64,000 nucleotides of DNA, taken from positions 8,944 through 72,943 of the forward strand of contig CAXIWS010000516.1 in assembly GCA_964036195.1 (NCBI GenBank), given 5' to 3'. Below the pieces are notes generated by a model that had not been told where the DNA came from, ran no database searches, and worked only from the letters and a program-made list of their open reading frames with translations. The DNA comes from Sphaerolaimus hirsutus. Lineage: Eukaryota > Nematoda > Chromadorea > Monhysterida > Sphaerolaimidae. The position numbers and the translations under genes were made by a program. Shown piece by piece: positions 26,197 to 38,000 of this stretch. Positions within the stretch are counted from its first letter, which is position 1; every line of letters begins with the position of its first letter.

Positions 26197-27447
26197 TAAC
26201 GATGGCAAAAAAAGATTCGAAAATTCGAAAACATTTTCGAATTTTCGAATTTTTCCGGAATTTTCGAATTTTTATTTCACCTCTAGAAAAAACACTTAAA
26301 AATCGATTTATTTTTCAAAAAATTCGAAAATTCTAAAATTCAAAAATTCAAAAATACTTTTCGAATTTTTCAGGCAATTCAAGGCACTCTTAAGTTCAAC
26401 GTACTAAATACAACGACAATTGATACGCGATGCTTATGCAAAAGCGAAACAAAACAGAAAAAACGTCCAAAAACGTTGAAATGTAAACTGCCCTGTAAAA
26501 TGTGAAATTTCATGCAAAGTGTCAAAAGTTATGAAAATGCCATGGAAAAATGGCAAACATATTTGCCATTTTCCACAGCATTTCCATGACTTTAGACACT
26601 TTGCATAACATTTAACATTTCACAGAGCATTTTACAGGTGTCTGGGACTGCACATAGGAACTGCACATATTTATAAGTAAAAGAGATGTGATCAAAGATA
26701 TACTCCAGCGACATTACACTTTACAATGAAACCTACCATATCCCATCTGAATAAAATAACAAACATAAAATTTTTTCATCATATTAATTAAATTGCTTTG
26801 ATAAATTCATTAATTCTTTAATTTTTTCAGATGGATCATGGTAGATTTCATTGTAGGTGTAATGTCGCTGGAGTATAAGAGTGGTTTTGAGTATTGGTTT
26901 GAGAAGTACCCATATTTCATGCAGTTAGCACTGTATGCACTGAGTACGCTCAGTGTGCTATACTTGGGCGACATTACACCCTACATTTTTCTGGTGCTAA
27001 CACTCCATCATGACGTCATAACCGCAGTCCGCAGTGAACTTACGGCTGACTGAACTGGTTCGGAGTCAGGATGAAATGGAGTGGAGTGGTGAATCAGTTC
27101 AAAAGTTTTCAGTTGGCTGTCTGCCAGCAAAAGATATAAATCATATCTATTTGTAGATTAGCATGTCTGCTGAGTATAGTCACTTCCAAAACAGTCCAAA
27201 TTCTGTGTTTAAAGCTTCAGATTCAATATTTTTCCAAAAAAAATTGAAAATTATTTGCAAAAAAAATTGAAAAATAGCCAAAAAAATTCGAAAATTGCCA
27301 AAAAAGATTCAAAAATTCGAAAATTCGAAAATTAAATTCGAAATTCGAAAATTAATTACAGGAAAAATTCGAAAATTCGAAAATTCATTTTGGAAAAAAA
27401 ACACTTAAAAATTTAAATACTTTTTTTTGGAGGGTTTGCCATCGTTA
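26197..27447. mobile_element. hAT-like element, YAACGATGG family, 1.25 kb with nested repeats
   Basis: Ends TAACGATGGCAAAAAAAG and TTTGCCATCGTTA; exact 8-bp duplication CTACCTAC (26189-26196, 27448-27455). Arrays of AAAAATTCGAAAATTCG lie at both ends, as in 1157-1717. Nested inside are a GTGTCAAAAGTTATG repeat (about 26490-26650) and a TATACTC MITE (26699-26877). Confidence 0.9.
26699..26877. mobile_element. TATACTCCAGCGACATTACAC MITE (179 bp)
   Basis: Inverted ends TATACTCCAGCGACATTACA and TGTAATGTCGCTGGAGTATA; inner text CCATATCCCATCTGAATAAA recurs at 35175-35245 in PGK intron 1 as a one-ended fragment. Confidence 0.82.
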
Positions 27448-28235: not shown

Positions 28236-28481
28236 TAGTGATGTAAAAGCGCCATGGCGCTGGCGCTTAGCGCTAGCGCCAAAGCGAAAAGCGCCATGGC
28301 GCTTTTGGCGCTTGGCGCTATTTTGCTGTGGCGCCATTGGCGCTTGGCGCCATGCCCATGAAAAGCGCCATGGCGCTTTTGGCGCTTGTTGCTATTTTTG
28401 ACTGGCGCCGGGAACAAAAAGCGCTAGCGCCAAAACAAAAAGCGCCATGGCGCCAAAGTTCAGGCGCTTTTCACATCACTA
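28236..28481. mobile_element. Compact GGCGCC-box hAT-like MITE (246 bp)
   Basis: Ends TAGTGATGTAAAAGCGCC and GGCGCTTTTCACATCACTA with 7/8 matching flanks (GTAATAAT 28228-28235, GTAAAAAT 28482-28489). The entire body is GGCGCC/GGCGCT boxes, so it is the family stripped to ends plus array. Confidence 0.85.
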
Positions 28482-28565: not shown

Positions 28566-29225
28566 TTATAAAAAAGAGAGCCGTGTTTCGACTGTGATCC
28601 TATACACGGGCTAGCACCCTACCCAGTGTCGTCAGTAGGATAGTAGGGTGCCACTCTTTTACATTACCAAATATTTTACCACTGAAAACTACCACCAAGA
28701 AAACCATACCTACCGCACGCTTTCTTTTCCTTCGCTTGCCATCCTGTTTTCCATTCTTGCCAGCGCCTGGCATTTTGCCAACTGCAGCGAGCCAAAACAC
28801 GACAAATGGCGGTTTCGCTGTAGAAAATGTAGCTAGGGTAGCGAATATATTGACCCTGTGTGAGAACAGGTGAACGTGAATGTTATCAAACAGTAAAAAC
28901 CACCAAATTGGGGCACGGATCATTTTTCTTTTTATTTTCAGACATAAGTATCTAGTAATTTAAAACCTCGTTTGTTAATTTACGTGCAGAGACGGGGTCC
29001 ACAACCCCCAGTGGGAAGGTTAAAACAGGGAACGAGGTAAATATTCTATTTAGTACCTGTTTTAGGCGGAGTCGCCCAAATTTATTTTTCTCAAATTCCA
29101 GACAAAGGTTACGGCATTGGGAAATGACGCCACCTCTGCTGGAAATAATACGTAAGTACCTAAGAATTTGACCATAGAACACTGCATATCCTAAGTTGTG
29201 TGAAACACAAGAGTCGGCATGCAGT
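28566..29225 (-). repeat. 3' pseudo-LTR of the Penelope-like element (660 bp)
   Basis: It matches 33395-34054 at a fixed offset of 4829 bp. It includes the last 91 codons of the RT ORF, the 3' untranslated part and the hammerhead-like motif near its outer end. Confidence 0.95.
28581..28651 (-). ncRNA. Hammerhead-like ribozyme motif, copy 1
   Basis: On the minus strand the core boxes are CTGACGA (28635-28629) and GAAA (28589-28586), with a predicted GTA cleavage triplet ending at 28603. Stem I is ATCCTA (28641-28636) with TAGGAT (28602-28597). Stem II is ACTG with CAGT. Stem III is CCGTGT (28609-28604) with ACACGG (28586-28581). A 9-bp helix GCACCCTAC/GTAGGGTGC (28651-28643 with 28622-28614) closes the first loop. 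Strand order differs from a normal hammerhead and the first stem II pair is C/C. Hammerheads are known in PLE pseudo-LTRs; activity here is inferred. Confidence 0.55.
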
Positions 29226-31807
29226 GCCCTGTTTACCTTAAAATTAAAATCTTTTCTTTTGTCATACAATCCAAAGGTAACCGGGTCACCTTTGAAAATA
29301 TTTAAATCCAAAAACGGGGCACACGCTTCACTGTCAACACTCGTTTTGTTGAGTGTCAAGGCTGCAGGATAGATGTTTTTGGCTAAATCCAGAAAGTTTT
29401 CACAATTGACAACCAAGATGTCATCTACATATCTAAAAACACCATAGAAACTTTGACCACCACACTTTCTACCTTCATTTTTGACAAACTGATATTCAAA
29501 CATTGCTAATACTGCTATGGCCACACTACTGGAGTGCGCACCACCTTGTGGTACACCATTTACTTGCTGAAACATATTACCTCCAAAACAAACATAAGTT
29601 TCTAGAATACTATCTCTTATCAGAGTTTTAATTTCATCTTTCTCCAGAAAAATAAAAGACTCTGACAATTTAACTGTTTGTTTTAATGAAACAAATTTGT
29701 GCGAAATGCACAAATACTTTTTATTCATACACAAGTCAACCAATTTATCAAGCATTCTAAAAATGTCAGCGAAAGGCAAACTCGGGAACAGGTTCGAAAA
29801 ATCAGCTGTCACAATTGAGCGTACTGGCTCACTCATATTTTTCAACTGGTCAATTATTTCACTACTGTTTTTAACCACCCAAAAATGCGACATACCAGAT
29901 TGCTCTCTGGCAGTGTCACAATAACCTTCTAATCTCCTGATTAGAAAGTCCAGAATTCTATGCACCAGTTGACATATGGGTTTTGTGCTTGATTTAGAGG
30001 CGCCTGCAATAAACCTCATTTTGTACGGATTTTTGTGTAACTTAGGGTTGGCAAAAATTACTGGTATTACATCAGATGCATTTGACACATTGTATTTATA
30101 ACTTCCAACCAACTGTCGATGCTCTAGGAAAAGTTTATCCTGCACCTCTACTAAATTACCCAGTGGTTGGTAGGTACCATTGCCACTTACTTGTAAAGTA
30201 CCCCCTGAAAATGTGACACCCAGCTCGGCACACATTTGGAGCGTGTACCACTTTTTGCACATAACCACATAGTTGCCAGCTGCCTTATCAGCCGGTGCAA
30301 TAATGTAGTTTTTCTGTATTTCCTTCAAACCAGATACACTATAGCGATATTTAGGTACATTTAAATCAATTTTTGACAGACGCACAATCGCCCTATCAAT
30401 AGCTTCACTTATGGGAAGTATCCAATCCGCACGGGATAGATTACTTCCACTTTTTTTGTTTAACTTTTCACCTAAAACTCGAAACCCAGCCACCAGGCTG
30501 GTTCTACAGTGACCCCAGTTAATTACCTTAGGCAGACGGAATTTACTACCACATTTTAAAATAGAAAGCAAACCTTCATCTTCAAAAAACTTTAAGTCAC
30601 CTGTGATAATATGACCAGCCGGTGGATAAACGTAGGCCGATCCAAGGCAGTCACAATCACCATCCAAAATCTCACACATCTCCTGACGCAGTAAACTGCA
30701 AAGAAATGTGTTGTAATTAAAAACTTTTCTGGCGAAGGGTGGTTCATATTTATAGCATATTCGTGAATTTCTGAGCAGAACTTTTTGTTCAGCGTTTAGC
30801 TGTCCCAGACACCCACTTGCTCTCAAAAGCCTCCTAACATTAAGGTAATCCATGCCCTTATTTGGATATTCAAAAGACACCGTGATCTCTACCTTATTGG
30901 TTTTTGTTTTCTCCTTTTTTGAAACTTTTGCAAAGTAAAAACACCTCACAAACTTGAAAAATTCGCACTCCACACCCATATTGAAATAGGTACCAATTGC
31001 ATCAATAACTAACTTTATATTTTTATCACTGAGCTGCGATAGCTCCGCATACCACGTCCTGAAGCGCTTGGAACAGTTCCATTTCGTCAGTCGACGCAGC
31101 CCTGAAATGTACATGTCTGTGTCAAGGTCCGTAGACCCACGAGCACGCTTTTTAACAACACTTTTAACACCATGGGGGCGCGCCAACCGAGGAACTGGTT
31201 TGGAGAAATATGGGAAATTATCCCCACGCAACAACACCGAAAAAGTTTTTCGATGTACTAGTCCCACACCTTTAACCTTGTGATTTAGGCCTAACGGCCA
31301 GGCCGTATTTAAAACCCTAATCCAATGTGATTCACGCTCAGTCAGCAAATTTTTGAAATTGCTGCCTGTAACGTGCTCCACATGGTCAATTATTTGCCAA
31401 CAAAGGTTACTAATACCACAGAATTTGAAATGCTTATAAACCAGCGAACCAGTTCCTTTTTTGGCTGCCGCCATGTGTTCCTTCATTCTAATACAAAAAC
31501 TACGTTTAGTCTCGCCGACATATTGCATTCGGCATTTCAAACATGTGATCAAATAGACCACACCTTTTACACTACAGTCTAAGTGACTAGAAAAGTTGGA
31601 CACAAAGCGTTTTCCAGTGATACTACTTTTGAAGGTATTTGAGGTAGGTACTCTGTTGCATGCAGTGCAATCTAATTTATCACATGCTTCATAATTTTCC
31701 CCGGACCTAGAATCGTCCCAACTGAAAGTCAAATCCGAGTGATTGTATTTTAACGCCAAAACCGACCTATCCACACACAATTTTTCATTTGGGGAATTGT
31801 TGGCTGC
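28952..31807 (-). CDS. ORF2: GIY-YIG endonuclease plus reverse transcriptase of the Penelope-like element
   Basis: About 942 residues counted from a TTG at 31780; there is no ATG between that point and the in-frame TAA at 31810-31808. In order: a Cys cluster (C33, C38, C41); GIY-YIG nuclease about 72-160 (VVYLI, YVGET, Arg in KRSFCIRMKEH, Glu in LLTERESHWI); a long linker; and RT with NPKLHKNPYKMRFIAG (fingers), TADFSNLFPSLP (motif A, Asp about 660), NGVPQGGAHSSS (motif B) and FRYVDDILVVN (motif C, YVDD at nt 29431-29420). It would nick target DNA and copy the element RNA. An ATG in the same frame at 31906-31904 lies upstream of the TAA, so the true start, a nonsense mutation or an intron remains open. 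All RT catalytic residues seen are intact. Confidence 0.9.
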   Translation of the reverse strand, partial: AANNSPNEKLCVDRSVLALKYNHSDLTFSWDDSRSGENYEACDKLDCTACNRVPTSNTFKSSITGKRFVSNFSSHLDCSVKGVVYLITCLKCRMQYVGETKRSFCIRMKEHMAAAKKGTGSLVYKHFKFCGISNLCWQIIDHVEHVTGSNFKNLLTERESHWIRVLNTAWPLGLNHKVKGVGLVHRKTFSVLLRGDNFPYFSKPVPRLARPHGVKSVVKKRARGSTDLDTDMYISGLRRLTKWNCSKRFRTWYAELSQLSDKNIKLVIDAIGTYFNMGVECEFFKFVRCFYFAKVSKKEKTKTNKVEITVSFEYPNKGMDYLNVRRLLRASGCLGQLNAEQKVLLRNSRICYKYEPPFARKVFNYNTFLCSLLRQEMCEILDGDCDCLGSAYVYPPAGHIITGDLKFFEDEGLLSILKCGSKFRLPKVINWGHCRTSLVAGFRVLGEKLNKKSGSNLSRADWILPISEAIDRAIVRLSKIDLNVPKYRYSVSGLKEIQKNYIIAPADKAAGNYVVMCKKWYTLQMCAELGVTFSGGTLQVSGNGTYQPLGNLVEVQDKLFLEHRQLVGSYKYNVSNASDVIPVIFANPKLHKNPYKMRFIAGASKSSTKPICQLVHRILDFLIRRLEGYCDTAREQSGMSHFWVVKNSSEIIDQLKNMSEPVRSIVTADFSNLFPSLPFADIFRMLDKLVDLCMNKKYLCISHKFVSLKQTVKLSESFIFLEKDEIKTLIRDSILETYVCFGGNMFQQVNGVPQGGAHSSSVAIAVLAMFEYQFVKNEGRKCGGQSFYGVFRYVDDILVVNCENFLDLAKNIYPAALTLNKTSVDSEACAPFLDLNIFKGDPVTFGLYDKRKDFNFKVNRALHADSCVSHNLGYAVFYGQILRYLRIISSRGGVISQCRNLCLEFEKNKFGRLRLKQVLNRIFTSFPVLTFPLGVVDPVSARKLTNEVLNY

Positions 31808-32127
31808 TTATTTTTTGTCACCCACAGGTGGGACCAGCCCGGACCCATGCTGTGAGCCAGAAGTATATTTACTGGGGCTGCCAGTATGGAATAGAGACAA
31901 AACCATTTTTGTATTTTATTTCAAGTAGCGTTACCAATCACAATCTTCTGTCAATGTGAAATGGCAGGATCACACATTAAATAACTTACATTAAGCTCAC
32001 GATAACGTACCATAATCAACAAAACGAAAATTCAACAAAAAAGTTTATACCCGTGGAAGTGTGAGAGAACTTTGGGGGAGTACCCGACCAGCGATCTAAA
32101 TATACAAAAAAAACCGACACTAACCGC

Positions 32128-33153
32128 TCAAGGCTGAGTTTTTGCAACATAAACTGTCGGGAGGCGAATCACGCCATTTTTCTGGGTGGCGAGCACCTTG
32201 TGGACACTGGCGCCACCGTCCGGGGACGATGTCGCCAGCGGTCCAGTCTGGCGGCCGACACCCCCAAATGGCATTGTAGCATCCCTCCCAGCGCCCATCA
32301 CAGCACCACTAGAGGAACTGCCCGCCACCATAGTCTCGTCCATGGCGGTGACGTTGACATTGTCACCCCCGATGGCGGACCCCTGAACGGGGCTCGCACT
32401 CGGGGGTGCCACCACCAACGCGCCAGAGACGAAGAACTCTGGATTTTTTACGCGCAACTCCTCTAGTTCGTCCTTGATCTTGCGCCAGGAGCGGATCAAC
32501 GGCTCCGCCCCCTCCGGTTTTCCAGCGAAAGTTACGCCGATCTGGTTCATGTCGTGCTGCCACACCTTGCGAAACCCGTCGGCGGACCTGAGTCGCACCA
32601 ACACCTTTTGTAACTCGACGTTGACTTTAACTTGTTGCTCGGTGCGGTCGGCCATGATGGACACGAAGTCCAACAGCTGGCCATTCGCACCGGAAAACTT
32701 CAGATTATGCTTTCGCAACTCCAAGCGATAGAATTTTACACATTTTTCGGGAATGTCAGAGCGACAAAATTCCACGCGCACCGTTTTTGAGGACAGACGG
32801 CGCGCCTCTGTAACACAAGCCACCTCTTCGCGAGGCATTCCACACCGCTCAAACAAGAACCCTTTAATCACATCAATTAACTTACTACCACCCACACCAA
32901 AATGAGGGAAGTTTTGAATCAAAATGCTGTGTTTCTTCACAAAGGCTTCCACGGGGTCGAATCGTTTCTTTTGCCACTGTTCGAAATCGGCCTTTGACAG
33001 CAGGTGACGCGTGTCCACGACCGGTTTTTCTTCATTGCCATCGCCCGACTGCGCTGACGCATTTTTCGAGTTGTTCTGAAACGAGGAGAAAAACACTCTA
33101 AGGCAGGAAAGGGAAGTTCGAAGTATTTCAGTACACGCCCCACTTGGGGTCAC
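32128..33153 (-). CDS. ORF1 of the Penelope-like element, unknown function
   Basis: 341 codons are open from 33153 (a GTG; the upstream stop is at 33159-33157) to TGA before 32128. No ATG occurs in the N-terminal third. A strong acceptor (TTTTTCTCCTCGTTTCAG, AG at 33077-33076) suggests the coding exon starts at 33075 after a 5' intron. The product is charged, with a basic/acidic N-terminus, an amphipathic helical middle (DRTEQQVKVNVELQKVLVRL) and a Ser/Gly/Ala/Pro-rich low-complexity C-terminus. No nuclease, RT or Cys-His knuckle motif is visible. A nucleic-acid-binding ORF1-like role is only a guess by position. It ends about 320-350 bp before ORF2 in the same orientation. Confidence 0.7.
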   Translation of the reverse strand: MTPSGACTEILRTSLSCLRVFFSSFQNNSKNASAQSGDGNEEKPVVDTRHLLSKADFEQWQKKRFDPVEAFVKKHSILIQNFPHFGVGGSKLIDVIKGFLFERCGMPREEVACVTEARRLSSKTVRVEFCRSDIPEKCVKFYRLELRKHNLKFSGANGQLLDFVSIMADRTEQQVKVNVELQKVLVRLRSADGFRKVWQHDMNQIGVTFAGKPEGAEPLIRSWRKIKDELEELRVKNPEFFVSGALVVAPPSASPVQGSAIGGDNVNVTAMDETMVAGSSSSGAVMGAGRDATMPFGGVGRQTGPLATSSPDGGASVHKVLATQKNGVIRLPTVYVAKTQP

Positions 33154-33394
33154 GCGTTATCCACTGAAAATCCTCAAGAAATTGCGCACCGCTCCACTTG
33201 GGATCGCGGCATATGCGCGGCAGACCACATCACCCTCAGGTTCGAAGGGAATGCCCCCAATCCAAAACACAAAAAACTACAGGTACGGTGGTAACGCGCA
33301 GGAATATGTTGTACATACACAACCTAGAGATACTCCAGAGTGATGAATGCGGTAGGCGGAGCCACACCATTCACTCATTGACTCGGAAAACTCA

Positions 33395-34054
33395 TTATAA
33401 AAAAGAGAGCCGTGTTTCGACTGTGATCCTATACACGGGCTAGCACCCTACCCAGTGTCGTCAGTAGGATAGTAGGGTGCCACTCTTTTACATTACCAAA
33501 TATTTTACCACTGAAAACTACCACCAAGAAAACCATACCTACCGCACGCTTTCTTTTCCTTCGCTTGCCATCCTGTTTTCCATTCTTGCCAGCGCCTGGC
33601 ATTTTGCCAACTGCAGCGAGCCAAAACACGACAAATGGCGGTTTCGCTGTAGAAAATGTAGCTAGGGTAGCGAATATATTGACCCTGTGTGAGAACAGGT
33701 GAACGTGAATGTTATCAAACAGTAAAAACCACCAAATTGGGGCACGGATCATTTTTCTTTTTATTTTCAGACATAAGTATCTAGTAATTTAAAACCTCGT
33801 TTGTTAATTTACGTGCAGAGACGGGGTCCACAACCCCCAGTGGGAAGGTTAAAACAGGGAACGAGGTAAATATTCTATTTAGTACCTGTTTTAGGCGGAG
33901 TCGCCCAAATTTATTTTTCTCAAATTCCAGACAAAGGTTACGGCATTGGGAAATGACGCCACCTCTGCTGGAAATAATACGTAAGTACCTAAGAATTTGA
34001 CCATAGAACACTGCATATCCTAAGTTGTGTGAAACACAAGAGTCGGCATGCAGT
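33395..34054 (-). repeat. 5' pseudo-LTR of the Penelope-like element (660 bp)
   Basis: Direct repeat of 28566-29225, representing a 5'-truncated upstream copy. Its truncation point at 34054 joins host DNA that happens to repeat CATGCAGT. Confidence 0.95.
33410..33480 (-). ncRNA. Hammerhead-like ribozyme motif, copy 2
   Basis: It is identical in all boxes and stems to copy 1, shifted by 4829 bp; the predicted cleavage lies between 33432 and 33431. Two copies flanking the ORFs would release a unit-length RNA if active. Confidence 0.55.
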
Positions 34055-35023: not shown

Positions 35024-38000
35024 ATGTCTCTGAACAAATTGGCCGTGGACAAAGTCGATGTCAAAGACAAACGCGTTCTTATTAGGTTGGTTTTGAAGGA
35101 TTTATAGATTTGAACTTGATTGGCTGTTTGATATTGTGAAATGATTTAGCTTGTGTGCTTTGTGGGGAGCATTTGGCGCGGTTTTACTCCAGCGAAATTA
35201 CACCCCACAATGAAATCTACCATATCCCATCTGAATAAACGACGAAACATAATTTTTTTCTCTTTGATCACATTGCTGTTATTTTTGGTGAATTTGGTGC
35301 AGTTTTTCACGCGACCTTATTCATCAAAATATGGTATCATCGATTGTATAGCAGTTTATCTGTCCAGTTTATGTAATTTACTATGTGGTTGAAGTGTGTT
35401 ATTGTATGAGCGGACGAAAAATATTTCAGAACAGTTGGAAAATAGCTAGAAAACGATAACTTGAACATCAGCTAAGATTGGGCTTGGAAAAACTGCTCTT
35501 AAAATCTAGCCTGGTTTCATAAATTTCAGTCTAGCCTTGGGGCACTCCCACAACCTGTAAAATGTCAAATTCCATACACGTGTTAAAAGTCATGTAAAAT
35601 GCAACAGTTTTATTTGACATTTTCCATGTTCTCCGACCTTCCCAAAATGTCACGCGATCAATTCCAACCCCCTTTCAACCCCCTTCCCTTCCAGAGTCGA
35701 CTTCAACGTGCCGCTGAAAGATGGCAAAGTGACCAACACGCAGCGCATAGTGGCCGCCGTGCCCACCATCAAATACTGCCTCGAAAAGGGTGCCAAATCC
35801 GTGGTACTTATGTCCCATTTGGGCAGGCCCGATGGAAATAAAAACGAGAAGTACACCATGAAACCTGTTGTGGATGTTCTAAAGGGACTGCTCGCCAAGT
35901 TGGTGTTTTTTTGTAAAATTGGATTTGGATTGTAGGTTTGATGACGGTTTTGTCTTTTTTGGGGGTTGAAGGTTGACAGTCGTTCCGTTCAACCCACTAT
36001 TGTGCCTATACACACTAGTATTCACCGTGACTTCGTGTGAAAACTGAAATTTTTTAAAATGCAAATTAATGAACACGGTTGAATGATTTTATTTTATTTT
36101 GATTATAATTTAAATTAATGAATCTTAAAATTTATAATTTTTAAAACTAAAACACATAATATAGCATACAAAAAGAGTAGGCTAAAGGTCGCCATGTCGC
36201 CATTTCAGTTTTCACATCGGTCACGGTGAAAACTAGTGTGTATAGGGCCAATATCTGTATATGTATATTCAATTGTTTTTTTACTACAATTTTTGGGATG
36301 AAAATGAATTATTGAATAGATTGGATGGCTCGATCAATCACGATTTGATCTGCCCACTGCATGGAACAATCTTTTTTTTTGTAGGTTGCGTAATAGTGCA
36401 CATATTCAGATAAATATTTTTCTTGTTGTTGTACGGATTTGTTCCATTCTAGGCTGCATAGAACAAATTCTCCGACAACAAGAAAAATATGCTATCTACT
36501 GTGCATTATTACGTAATCTATAAAATTTCATGATCCTTTTATGCAGTTAAGCAGAGCAAATGATAATCGATCGAGGCGCCTTCCTATCTATCTAATAATT
36601 GATTTTCATCCCCCCCAAAAATAATTGAAAAAGTCGACATTTTTGTCGTCACAAAAAAAACGTGTAAACGTCGCCTGAAAGTTCATGATTGAAAAAAAAT
36701 CATCCAACCCCCCGCCCCCCCCCCCCCAACTAGGGTTGGCCGATGTTTTTTTAAACGTTTTTTTTTTTAAAAAAACATGACGTCCGAAATGTTGTTTTTT
36801 TTAAAACATCGGCCGAAATTTTTAGTACTAAGCACTAGGTATTTTGCAAAATTTTTGCGCGCAAGCGCGCAATTTCACACACAAATTGACATTGGTGGTT
36901 GTTTTCATTGGTTTTGTGGCATTTTTAGTGTCAAAGTATCCATTTCTATGTGCTACCATGGGTTAATAAGCCGTGATATGTTGCTGTAGTATATAATATT
37001 GAGGTAATGTGCTTCCATGTACCTCCACAGTATGTAACTTCACTCCCAAAGTAACAACCTCATTTTATAACCTTGTTTCATCACTATTCCGTGCCAAACT
37101 TTACCTGAAGTCACGAACATTCGACTATAAGGCGATATACGAACAATATGTTGACGAAAAATGGATATTTTTGACACAAATCACCACTTATAATGCTATC
37201 CCATGGCTCCACAGACATTATATGGCCATATATAACATCACAGAGTATTGCCACTGTCTGATATAAATATATATGTTGACACAAGGTCATATCTGGGAGC
37301 TTTTAAAAAAAACGTTTTTTATTTAAAAAAAACGTTTTTTTTAAACATCGAGTTAAGTAAAACGTTTTTTTTCCAACCCTACCCCCAACCCCAGAGATGT
37401 AACCTTCCTATCCGACTGCGTGGGCGCCGAGGTGGAAGCTGCCTGCGCCAACCCCGCCCCCGGCTCGGTGATCCTCCTGGAGAATCTCCGCTTCCACGTG
37501 GAGGAGGAGGGCAAGGGCGTCGACAAGGATGGAAATAAGGTTGGAAAGGGGTTGATCGGGTGGGAACCCCCCACCCTCACGTCTGGGGACGTAGCCAGGA
37601 TTTTTGAGCGGGGTGTTGTATACAGAACAAGCCGGACGGGGGGGGGGCTGCCCCCCCTAAAAATTCGCCTGTGTGATAACGGAATGGCGTCACTGCGCTG
37701 ACGCCATCGAATTTGTCTGTTGATCTGAAATCACTTTCCACCCCCAGGGGTATCTTGAATTTTGACCCTCCGAGTGGTTGAATAGATAGCTGAGCGGCCT
37801 TCGGGATAGATAGATAGCTGGAAAACATTTTGTTGGGGGGGGGGTTGTGGTGGTTCGATATATAGGCTATTTGAGGGTGTAGAAGGAAGAAAAGGAGGAA
37901 AAATCGCTAAAAGTAGGTGTAAAACAGCTCAAAATGGGTATACAAGAGCATATAGTACTAAAAATAGTTGAAAATAGGTACAGCAACTAGTATTTTGGAG

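Follow-up and report, generated by a model that had tools for sequence, protein, structure and literature searches.

The catalytic core of the hammerhead ribozyme falls into three blocks, termed C, S and G. Ribozymes in which these blocks follow one another in non-circularly permuted order were described by Eckert et al. 2023 (NAR 51:2850, PMC10085705). Type SGC (HRIMA-1 and variants), with 583 predicted sequences, stems from metatranscriptomes, where it occurs alongside hairpin ribozymes, and one candidate was given for type GCS. Type CSG comprises two similar sequences, both of which cleave in vitro at the expected bond, and the authors themselves regarded the evidence for a biological relevance of this type as weaker (PMC10085705). 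Hammerheads are also found within the terminal repeats of canonical Penelope-like elements (PLEs) and Terminons, and PMC7761336 describes these as type I (block order CGS) and minimal, without helix III or loop-loop contacts, and possibly acting as dimers. For a PLE of the anole, PMC11167929 reports that the hammerhead cut solely when protein was added, and that ribozyme mutants left insertion in vitro unaffected.

The locus described here lies in a stretch of 64,000 nucleotides from the nematode Sphaerolaimus hirsutus (contig CAXIWS010000516.1), referred to as the window, whose minus strand carries what appears to be a Penelope-like retrotransposon with a knotted RNA structure close to its 3' end. 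We think, with a probability of roughly 0.87, that this RNA is a type-CSG, i.e. non-circularly permuted, hammerhead, and that the element bearing it at the 3' end is a PLE whose GIY-YIG endonuclease is N-terminal. The features of the element and of the predicted ribozyme are as follows.

28566..33394, minus strand: full element unit, 4829 bp, ending in ..TTTTTTATAA
33395..34054, minus strand: 5'-truncated upstream copy, 660 bp, 100% identical to 28566-29225, which makes a partial tandem
28952..31780, minus strand: 942-aa ORF with N-terminal GIY-YIG endonuclease (residues 72-158) and C-terminal reverse transcriptase (RT) motifs with YVDD
32128..33153, minus strand: 341-aa ORF1, with homologues in close siblings at 51-84% identity
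28581..28651, minus strand: predicted type-CSG hammerhead ribozyme, downstream (3'-terminal) copy (scanner and covariation)
33410..33480, minus strand: upstream copy, identical, of the predicted type-CSG hammerhead, where the two units join (scanner and repeat comparison)
28566..28662, minus strand: region inside a predicted outer helix that encloses both hairpins, imperfect in the window copy
28643..28651, minus strand: 5' strand of the bridge helix, GCACCCUAC, joining stems I and II (fold scores)
28636..28641, minus strand: block C, stem I 5' strand AUCCUA, 6 bp with UAGGAU (covariation)
28629..28635, minus strand: block C, CUGANGA box, here CUGACGA (core letters)
28624..28628, minus strand: block C, stem II 5' strand, ACUG at 28627-28624 plus unpaired C28628
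28614..28622, minus strand: 3' strand of the bridge helix, GUAGGGUGC, 9 bp with 28651-28643
28604..28609, minus strand: block S, stem III' CCGUGU including U16.1, 6 bp with ACACGG including U16.1-A15.1
28602..28603, minus strand: predicted cleavage site, between 28603 (A, H17) and 28602 (from hammerhead geometry)
28597..28602, minus strand: block S, stem I 3' strand UAGGAU (covariation)
28590..28594, minus strand: block G, stem II 3' strand, CAGU at 28594-28591 plus C28590, 4 bp with ACUG
28586..28589, minus strand: block G, GAAA (core letters)
28581..28586, minus strand: block G, stem III 5' strand ACACGG, its A15.1 shared with GAAA (covariation)

From 28651 to 28581 the minus strand thus reads GCACCCUAC-U-AUCCUA-CUGACGA-C/ACUG-G-GUAGGGUGC-UAGC-CCGUGU-A^UAGGAU-CA-CAGU/C-GAAA-CACGG, with the blocks in the order C (I-CUGACGA-II), S (III'-UA-I') and G (II'-GAAA-III), and the ribozyme stops 15 nt short of the unit end. 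A sequence-only reading of the window had assembled a hammerhead at this place from a CUGANGA box, a GAAA, a GUA triplet and stems of 6, 4 and 6 bp, and all of these are found in position on the minus strand. The strand order that it gave (I, CUGACGA, II, III', UA, I', II', GAAA, III) was borne out both by rereading and by a scanner that covers all six block orders. It had further connected the outer ends of stems I and II by a linker on one side and a 9-bp helix on the other; the I'-II' linker of 2 nt and the helix are both seen, which supports its picture of two kissing hairpins, and the identical copy that it had noticed at 33410-33480 lies 4,829 bp away, inside the 660-bp stretch of complete identity. 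Its cut between 28603 and 28602 holds as a prediction from hammerhead geometry. The claim that no hammerhead with such a connectivity had been described fails, however, because the order in the window is the published CSG order of Eckert et al. 2023 (PMC10085705), of which two examples have been cleaved.

Compared by description, the window ribozyme shares with the published type CSG (PMC10085705) the block order, the core letters and a helix that bridges stems I and II. The sizes are similar too: the published fragments measure 48/49 and 29 nt; in the window the predicted cut would leave 49 nt, counted from where the bridge helix begins, and 22 nt up to where stem III ends. Whereas the published sequences come from metagenomes and show modest covariation, the window family resides in retrotransposons of one animal-like genome and offers 24 distinct cores and strong covariation, and both of its hairpins are enclosed by a predicted outer helix in the subfamilies closest to the window. 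With type SGC (PMC10085705) it has in common a non-circular permutation with a bridge helix, but in another block order. The location within a PLE terminal repeat is shared with the hammerheads of canonical PLEs and Terminons (PMC7761336), from which the window family differs by its CSG order, its complete stem III and its bridge helix.

The 942-aa protein matches GIY-YIG with an E-value of 2.1e-5, which is over the cut-off, as are the matches of two relatives (L010, L022), with a further one (L029) just under it, and the domain lies N-terminal to the RT motifs. The RVT_1 match of Pfam is below cut-off in the window protein (E 0.009) and also in the related proteins, with none listed for L010; the YVDD is invariant in 14 rows, and a PDB search with the RT gave as its sole match a maturase RT, weakly (E 0.0089). 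Between endonuclease and RT there is a CxC motif, whose cysteines C376 and C378 are invariant in the 14 aligned rows. In PLEs with an N-terminal endonuclease (Naiad/Chlamys), the GIY-YIG domain reportedly also precedes the RT, with a CxC between the two, and partial tandems with pseudo-LTRs are said to occur, such as the one present at the window element. The endonuclease before the RT and the two invariant cysteines point to this group, and we take the window element to be an N-terminal-endonuclease PLE, an assignment that leans on these reported features. Such PLEs are said to be without canonical hammerhead motifs, which may be explained by the fact that a permuted hammerhead would escape searches for the canonical motif. 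ORF1 gave no match in Pfam. The insertion looks young, because nothing differs between its copies over 660 bp and neither ORF is interrupted; a target-site duplication was looked for at the window element, and no clear one was seen.

When a mismatch was permitted solely at the first stem II pair, the scanner matched nothing in the window except the site and its copy, each in the order CSG, and had no match in 60 dinucleotide shuffles of the window. The no-mismatch setting gives no match in the window because of the C/C pair at this position. In 38 related loci that setting gave 23 matches, 23/23 of order CSG, which correspond to 20 distinct places because some loci overlap, and shuffled sequence totalling 1.85 Mb contained no match at this setting. 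When shorter stems were accepted, a single match (SGC) arose in shuffled sequence; with one mismatch per stem permitted, shuffled sequence gave 16 matches in five orders, 5 of them CSG, and the real loci also gave 13 matches in orders other than CSG. A plain DNA pattern for two of the families matched 48 times genome-wide, as against 0 for the reversed pattern. Rfam reported no hammerhead at gathering scores in the window, in 15 sibling loci and in 11 loci without a nearby CSG. RF00163 was silent over the whole genome and in control genomes too, a result that says nothing on the absence of classical hammerheads.

The genome (348 Mb, 762 contigs) includes a 14,754-base contig whose COX1 is read with TGA as Trp and AGA/AGG as Ser, which points to an invertebrate host. 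Relatives of the element were collected by searching this genome with the 942-aa protein, which gave at least 50 matches (48 of 549 first-look candidates scored). Joining L016 with L017, L024 with L057 and both parts of L056 left 47 elements, of which 46 have an assessable 3' end, L012 being left out. Among the matches listed, a type-CSG hammerhead follows the RT gene on its 3' side in 36 of the 46 assessable elements. The scanner found 29 of the 36 with at most one mismatch, including L047, whose CSG lies about 2.9 kb downstream and which has another upstream of its ORF; four have one inserted base beside CUGANGA (L019, L026, L027, L043), and three are decayed, having lost GAAA or its G or changed stem I (L045, L046, L057). 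A different conserved RNA structure takes the place of the CSG in nine of the 46 (among the matches listed), and in one, L048, neither was found within the 1.8 kb examined. This context, a Penelope-like retrotransposon with the same ribozyme in most of the relatives examined, had been missing from the sequence-only reading. On a midpoint-rooted tree of 26 proteins, which contains one very long row (L059), 20 CSG elements make up one side of a branch with support 98/97, and most families have just 30-34% protein identity to the window protein. Outside this genome, viral contigs searched by protein alignment and with one DNA pattern gave no relatives. A collection of genome contigs contained one PLE-like ORF (L059:1332-4037), which is 29% identical to the window protein. 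Its 4.4-kb contig is binned into a Nanoarchaeales (archaeal) MAG, where it is probably a eukaryotic contaminant; no CSG is present anywhere on this contig, which covers just ~400 nt 3' of the match.

Covariation was assessed in 24 distinct cores, with decayed and bulged ones left out and L047 not included. The pairs were counted on joined core blocks, because whole-ribozyme alignments with MAFFT misplaced block S in some rows. Of 432 cells (18 pairs), 94.7% are paired, a fraction that is inflated, like the invariance, because the scanner that chose the 24 rows demands core letters and pairing. Changes on both sides are seen in 16/18 pairs. The covariation score is 0.832, compared with 0.228 +/- 0.022 for shuffled rows, and was reached by none of 500 shuffles; in slid registers it is at most 0.165. 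A measure of further pair types was not above shuffles (277 of 500). To allow for kinship, the changes at 16 pairs were mapped by parsimony onto a protein tree of 16 of the elements with these cores, which gave 48 pair changes: in 39 both sides change in a compensatory manner, 3 are confined to one side, 5 lead to an unpaired state and 1 leads from it. Covariation among siblings, whose absence the sequence-only reading had named as what could refute it, has come out strongly in its favor. The anatomy and the position recur, and the three stems covary, across a deep clade of elements.

The core letters CUGANGA, GAAA and U16.1 with H17 are present in 24/24 rows (the decayed L045 and L057 left out), but in this wider set they were a search condition of the scanner, and the invariance is thus not independent evidence. 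Plain DNA similarity, which is free of any motif, gave 15 matches, and in all eight loci that were fetched from these every core letter is kept, with N7 varying between A, C and T. The bridge helix scores on average 21.0 within rows and 12.95 (sd 4.47) across rows. It is clear (>=21) in 11/24 rows including the window and weak (13-19) in 13/24, to which shuffled letters come close with 12.75 (sd 3.12), and the nested part of L022 shows no folding advantage over shuffled sequence (z -0.59).

The weak point of the window copy is the mismatch C28628/C28590 at the first stem II pair (10.1-11.1), which the sequence-only reading had already pointed out and which is real. A standard pair at this position is usual in hammerheads, but it is not defining. 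It is present in 18/24 cores and replaced by a non-standard one in 6/24, and five of these six belong to the two nearest subfamilies, which together have eight cores (L001, L003, L004, L008, L020; L013, L015, L017), so that the C/C fits a tendency of the subfamily and is not a lone defect. The close siblings L003, L004 and L008 have A-U here. That the family is real and the window copy inactive or weak is nevertheless conceivable, and it would be compatible with our explanation for the family: besides the C/C pair, the outer helix of this copy contains a mismatch, and decayed copies exist (L045, L046, L057). With its copies identical over 660 bp, both ORFs uninterrupted and the insertion apparently young, and with a non-standard first stem II pair in 5/8 distinct cores of the nearest subfamilies, we regard such a loss of activity as unlikely, though not negligible.

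Alternatively, the structure might be kept for another purpose, such as binding of the RT or the ORF1 protein, a promoter or a packaging signal, with cleavage being incidental or lost. It does sit in a repeat that is expected to hold template and promoter signals, the stem I sequence CCAAA is the same in 6/6 rows of one family (L028, L029, L030, L032, L037, L053), and TATATAAAAG stands directly upstream of the ribozyme in L003-L007. These observations have to be weighed against the loci found by DNA similarity, which keep the hammerhead core letters while N7 is free, and against stems that turn over with compensation across families, and this explanation appears quite improbable to us. That the order was misread, and the RNA is a hammerhead of the classical types I-III or some other known ribozyme, can practically be dismissed, since, even though minimal type I hammerheads occur in canonical PLEs (PMC7761336), the all-order scanner without mismatch gives CSG in 23/23 matches, Rfam at its gathering scores reports no hammerhead, each of the three stems crosses the other two, unlike in types I-III, and the covariation is lost in slid registers.

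In the favored type-CSG hammerhead, the hairpin of the bridge helix and that of stem III would kiss via stems I and II and thereby build a standard hammerhead core. By analogy with type CSG, the RNA would cut itself between 28603 and 28602. Cutting of transcripts from tandem units would release monomers of 4,829 nt with half a ribozyme at each end, and these ends could stay paired. The template might then be a re-ligated unit circle or uncut RNA, which we propose with less certainty. Six distinct 3' insertion ends of the nearest subfamily (L001 = 28566, L003, L004, L006, L008, L020) stop directly after TTTTTTATAA, at TTATAA, 37 nt past the predicted cut; L002, L005 and L007 represent junctions between tandem units, and the set does not extend to six weaker DNA-similarity matches. 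A linear cut monomer would start at the cut and template just 37 nt from TTATAA, and a full copy would therefore need a circle or an uncut multi-unit RNA. The circle is weakly favored over uncut RNA because it would also yield the partial tandem. It is suggested, weakly, by the junction positions alone, and uncut RNA as template is equally consistent with the DNA.

The nine elements without CSG, a sister clade of PLEs, possess two conserved boxes near the 3' end, the second of which is incomplete in L041: [AATTAGC]TGGTAAAC[GCTAATT]CCGG-CGCGAGGTG-CTGGTC ... GACCAG-GCGATAAAAGCTCGCC-ACCAGC. This pattern has 66 exact matches in the genome and 0 when reversed. Among 29 sequences, some of them nearly identical, the first helix takes the forms AATTAGC/GCTAATT, TTTAAGC/GCTTAAA and TATAAGC/GCTTATA and the second the forms CTGGTC/GACCAG and CTGGCC/GGCCAG, with a few broken copies. 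The loop TGGT can pair with the terminal ACCA, and the structure is apparently pseudoknotted. Five of the nine elements form one clade (100/100). Rfam gave just weak matches to snoRNA/sRNA families for this structure, none of them convincing. Its position makes it a candidate ribozyme of a further class; a permuted twister was considered, but a by-eye comparison with twister sequences did not prove it. Loci with the structure are L040-L042, L049-L052, L054, L055 and L066-L085 (e.g. L042:900-1018, minus strand). It is tempting, but rather doubtful, to generalize that a major clade of N-terminal-endonuclease PLEs has the type-CSG hammerhead as its regular ribozyme, and that a sister clade in the same genome has a further pseudoknotted self-cleaving RNA, the classes having been exchanged while the slot was kept.

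The topology is already published, and what appears to be new is the home in a PLE, the family size and the covariation; no report of a permuted hammerhead in a PLE was found by title and abstract start in the openly licensed literature, preprints not included. Type CSG can now be tied to a host genome, to a mobile element as its home and to a fixed position, and its strong covariation recurs independently on a tree, which makes its biology testable. The family also provides an extensive natural alignment in which to study how the same active site is formed by a knotted RNA, and it prompts one to ask whether the processing of PLE RNAs yields unit-length molecules or circles.

A few further observations concern the surroundings of these structures. 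The TATATAAAAG of L003, L004, L005, L006 and L007, which adjoins the ribozyme on its upstream side, resembles a TATA box, and the window has AATGTAAAAG there. About 90 bp past the 3' end of the insertion, at 28269-28475, there are short palindromic repeats rich in GGCGCC/AGCGCC, and short A/T-rich tandem repeats of the AAAATTCG type are found at 26233-27395. A 75-bp repeat (85%) flanks the element on either side, at 26701-26857 and 35185-35259, about 8.5 kb apart, and 26822-26857 is an inverted copy of part of it.
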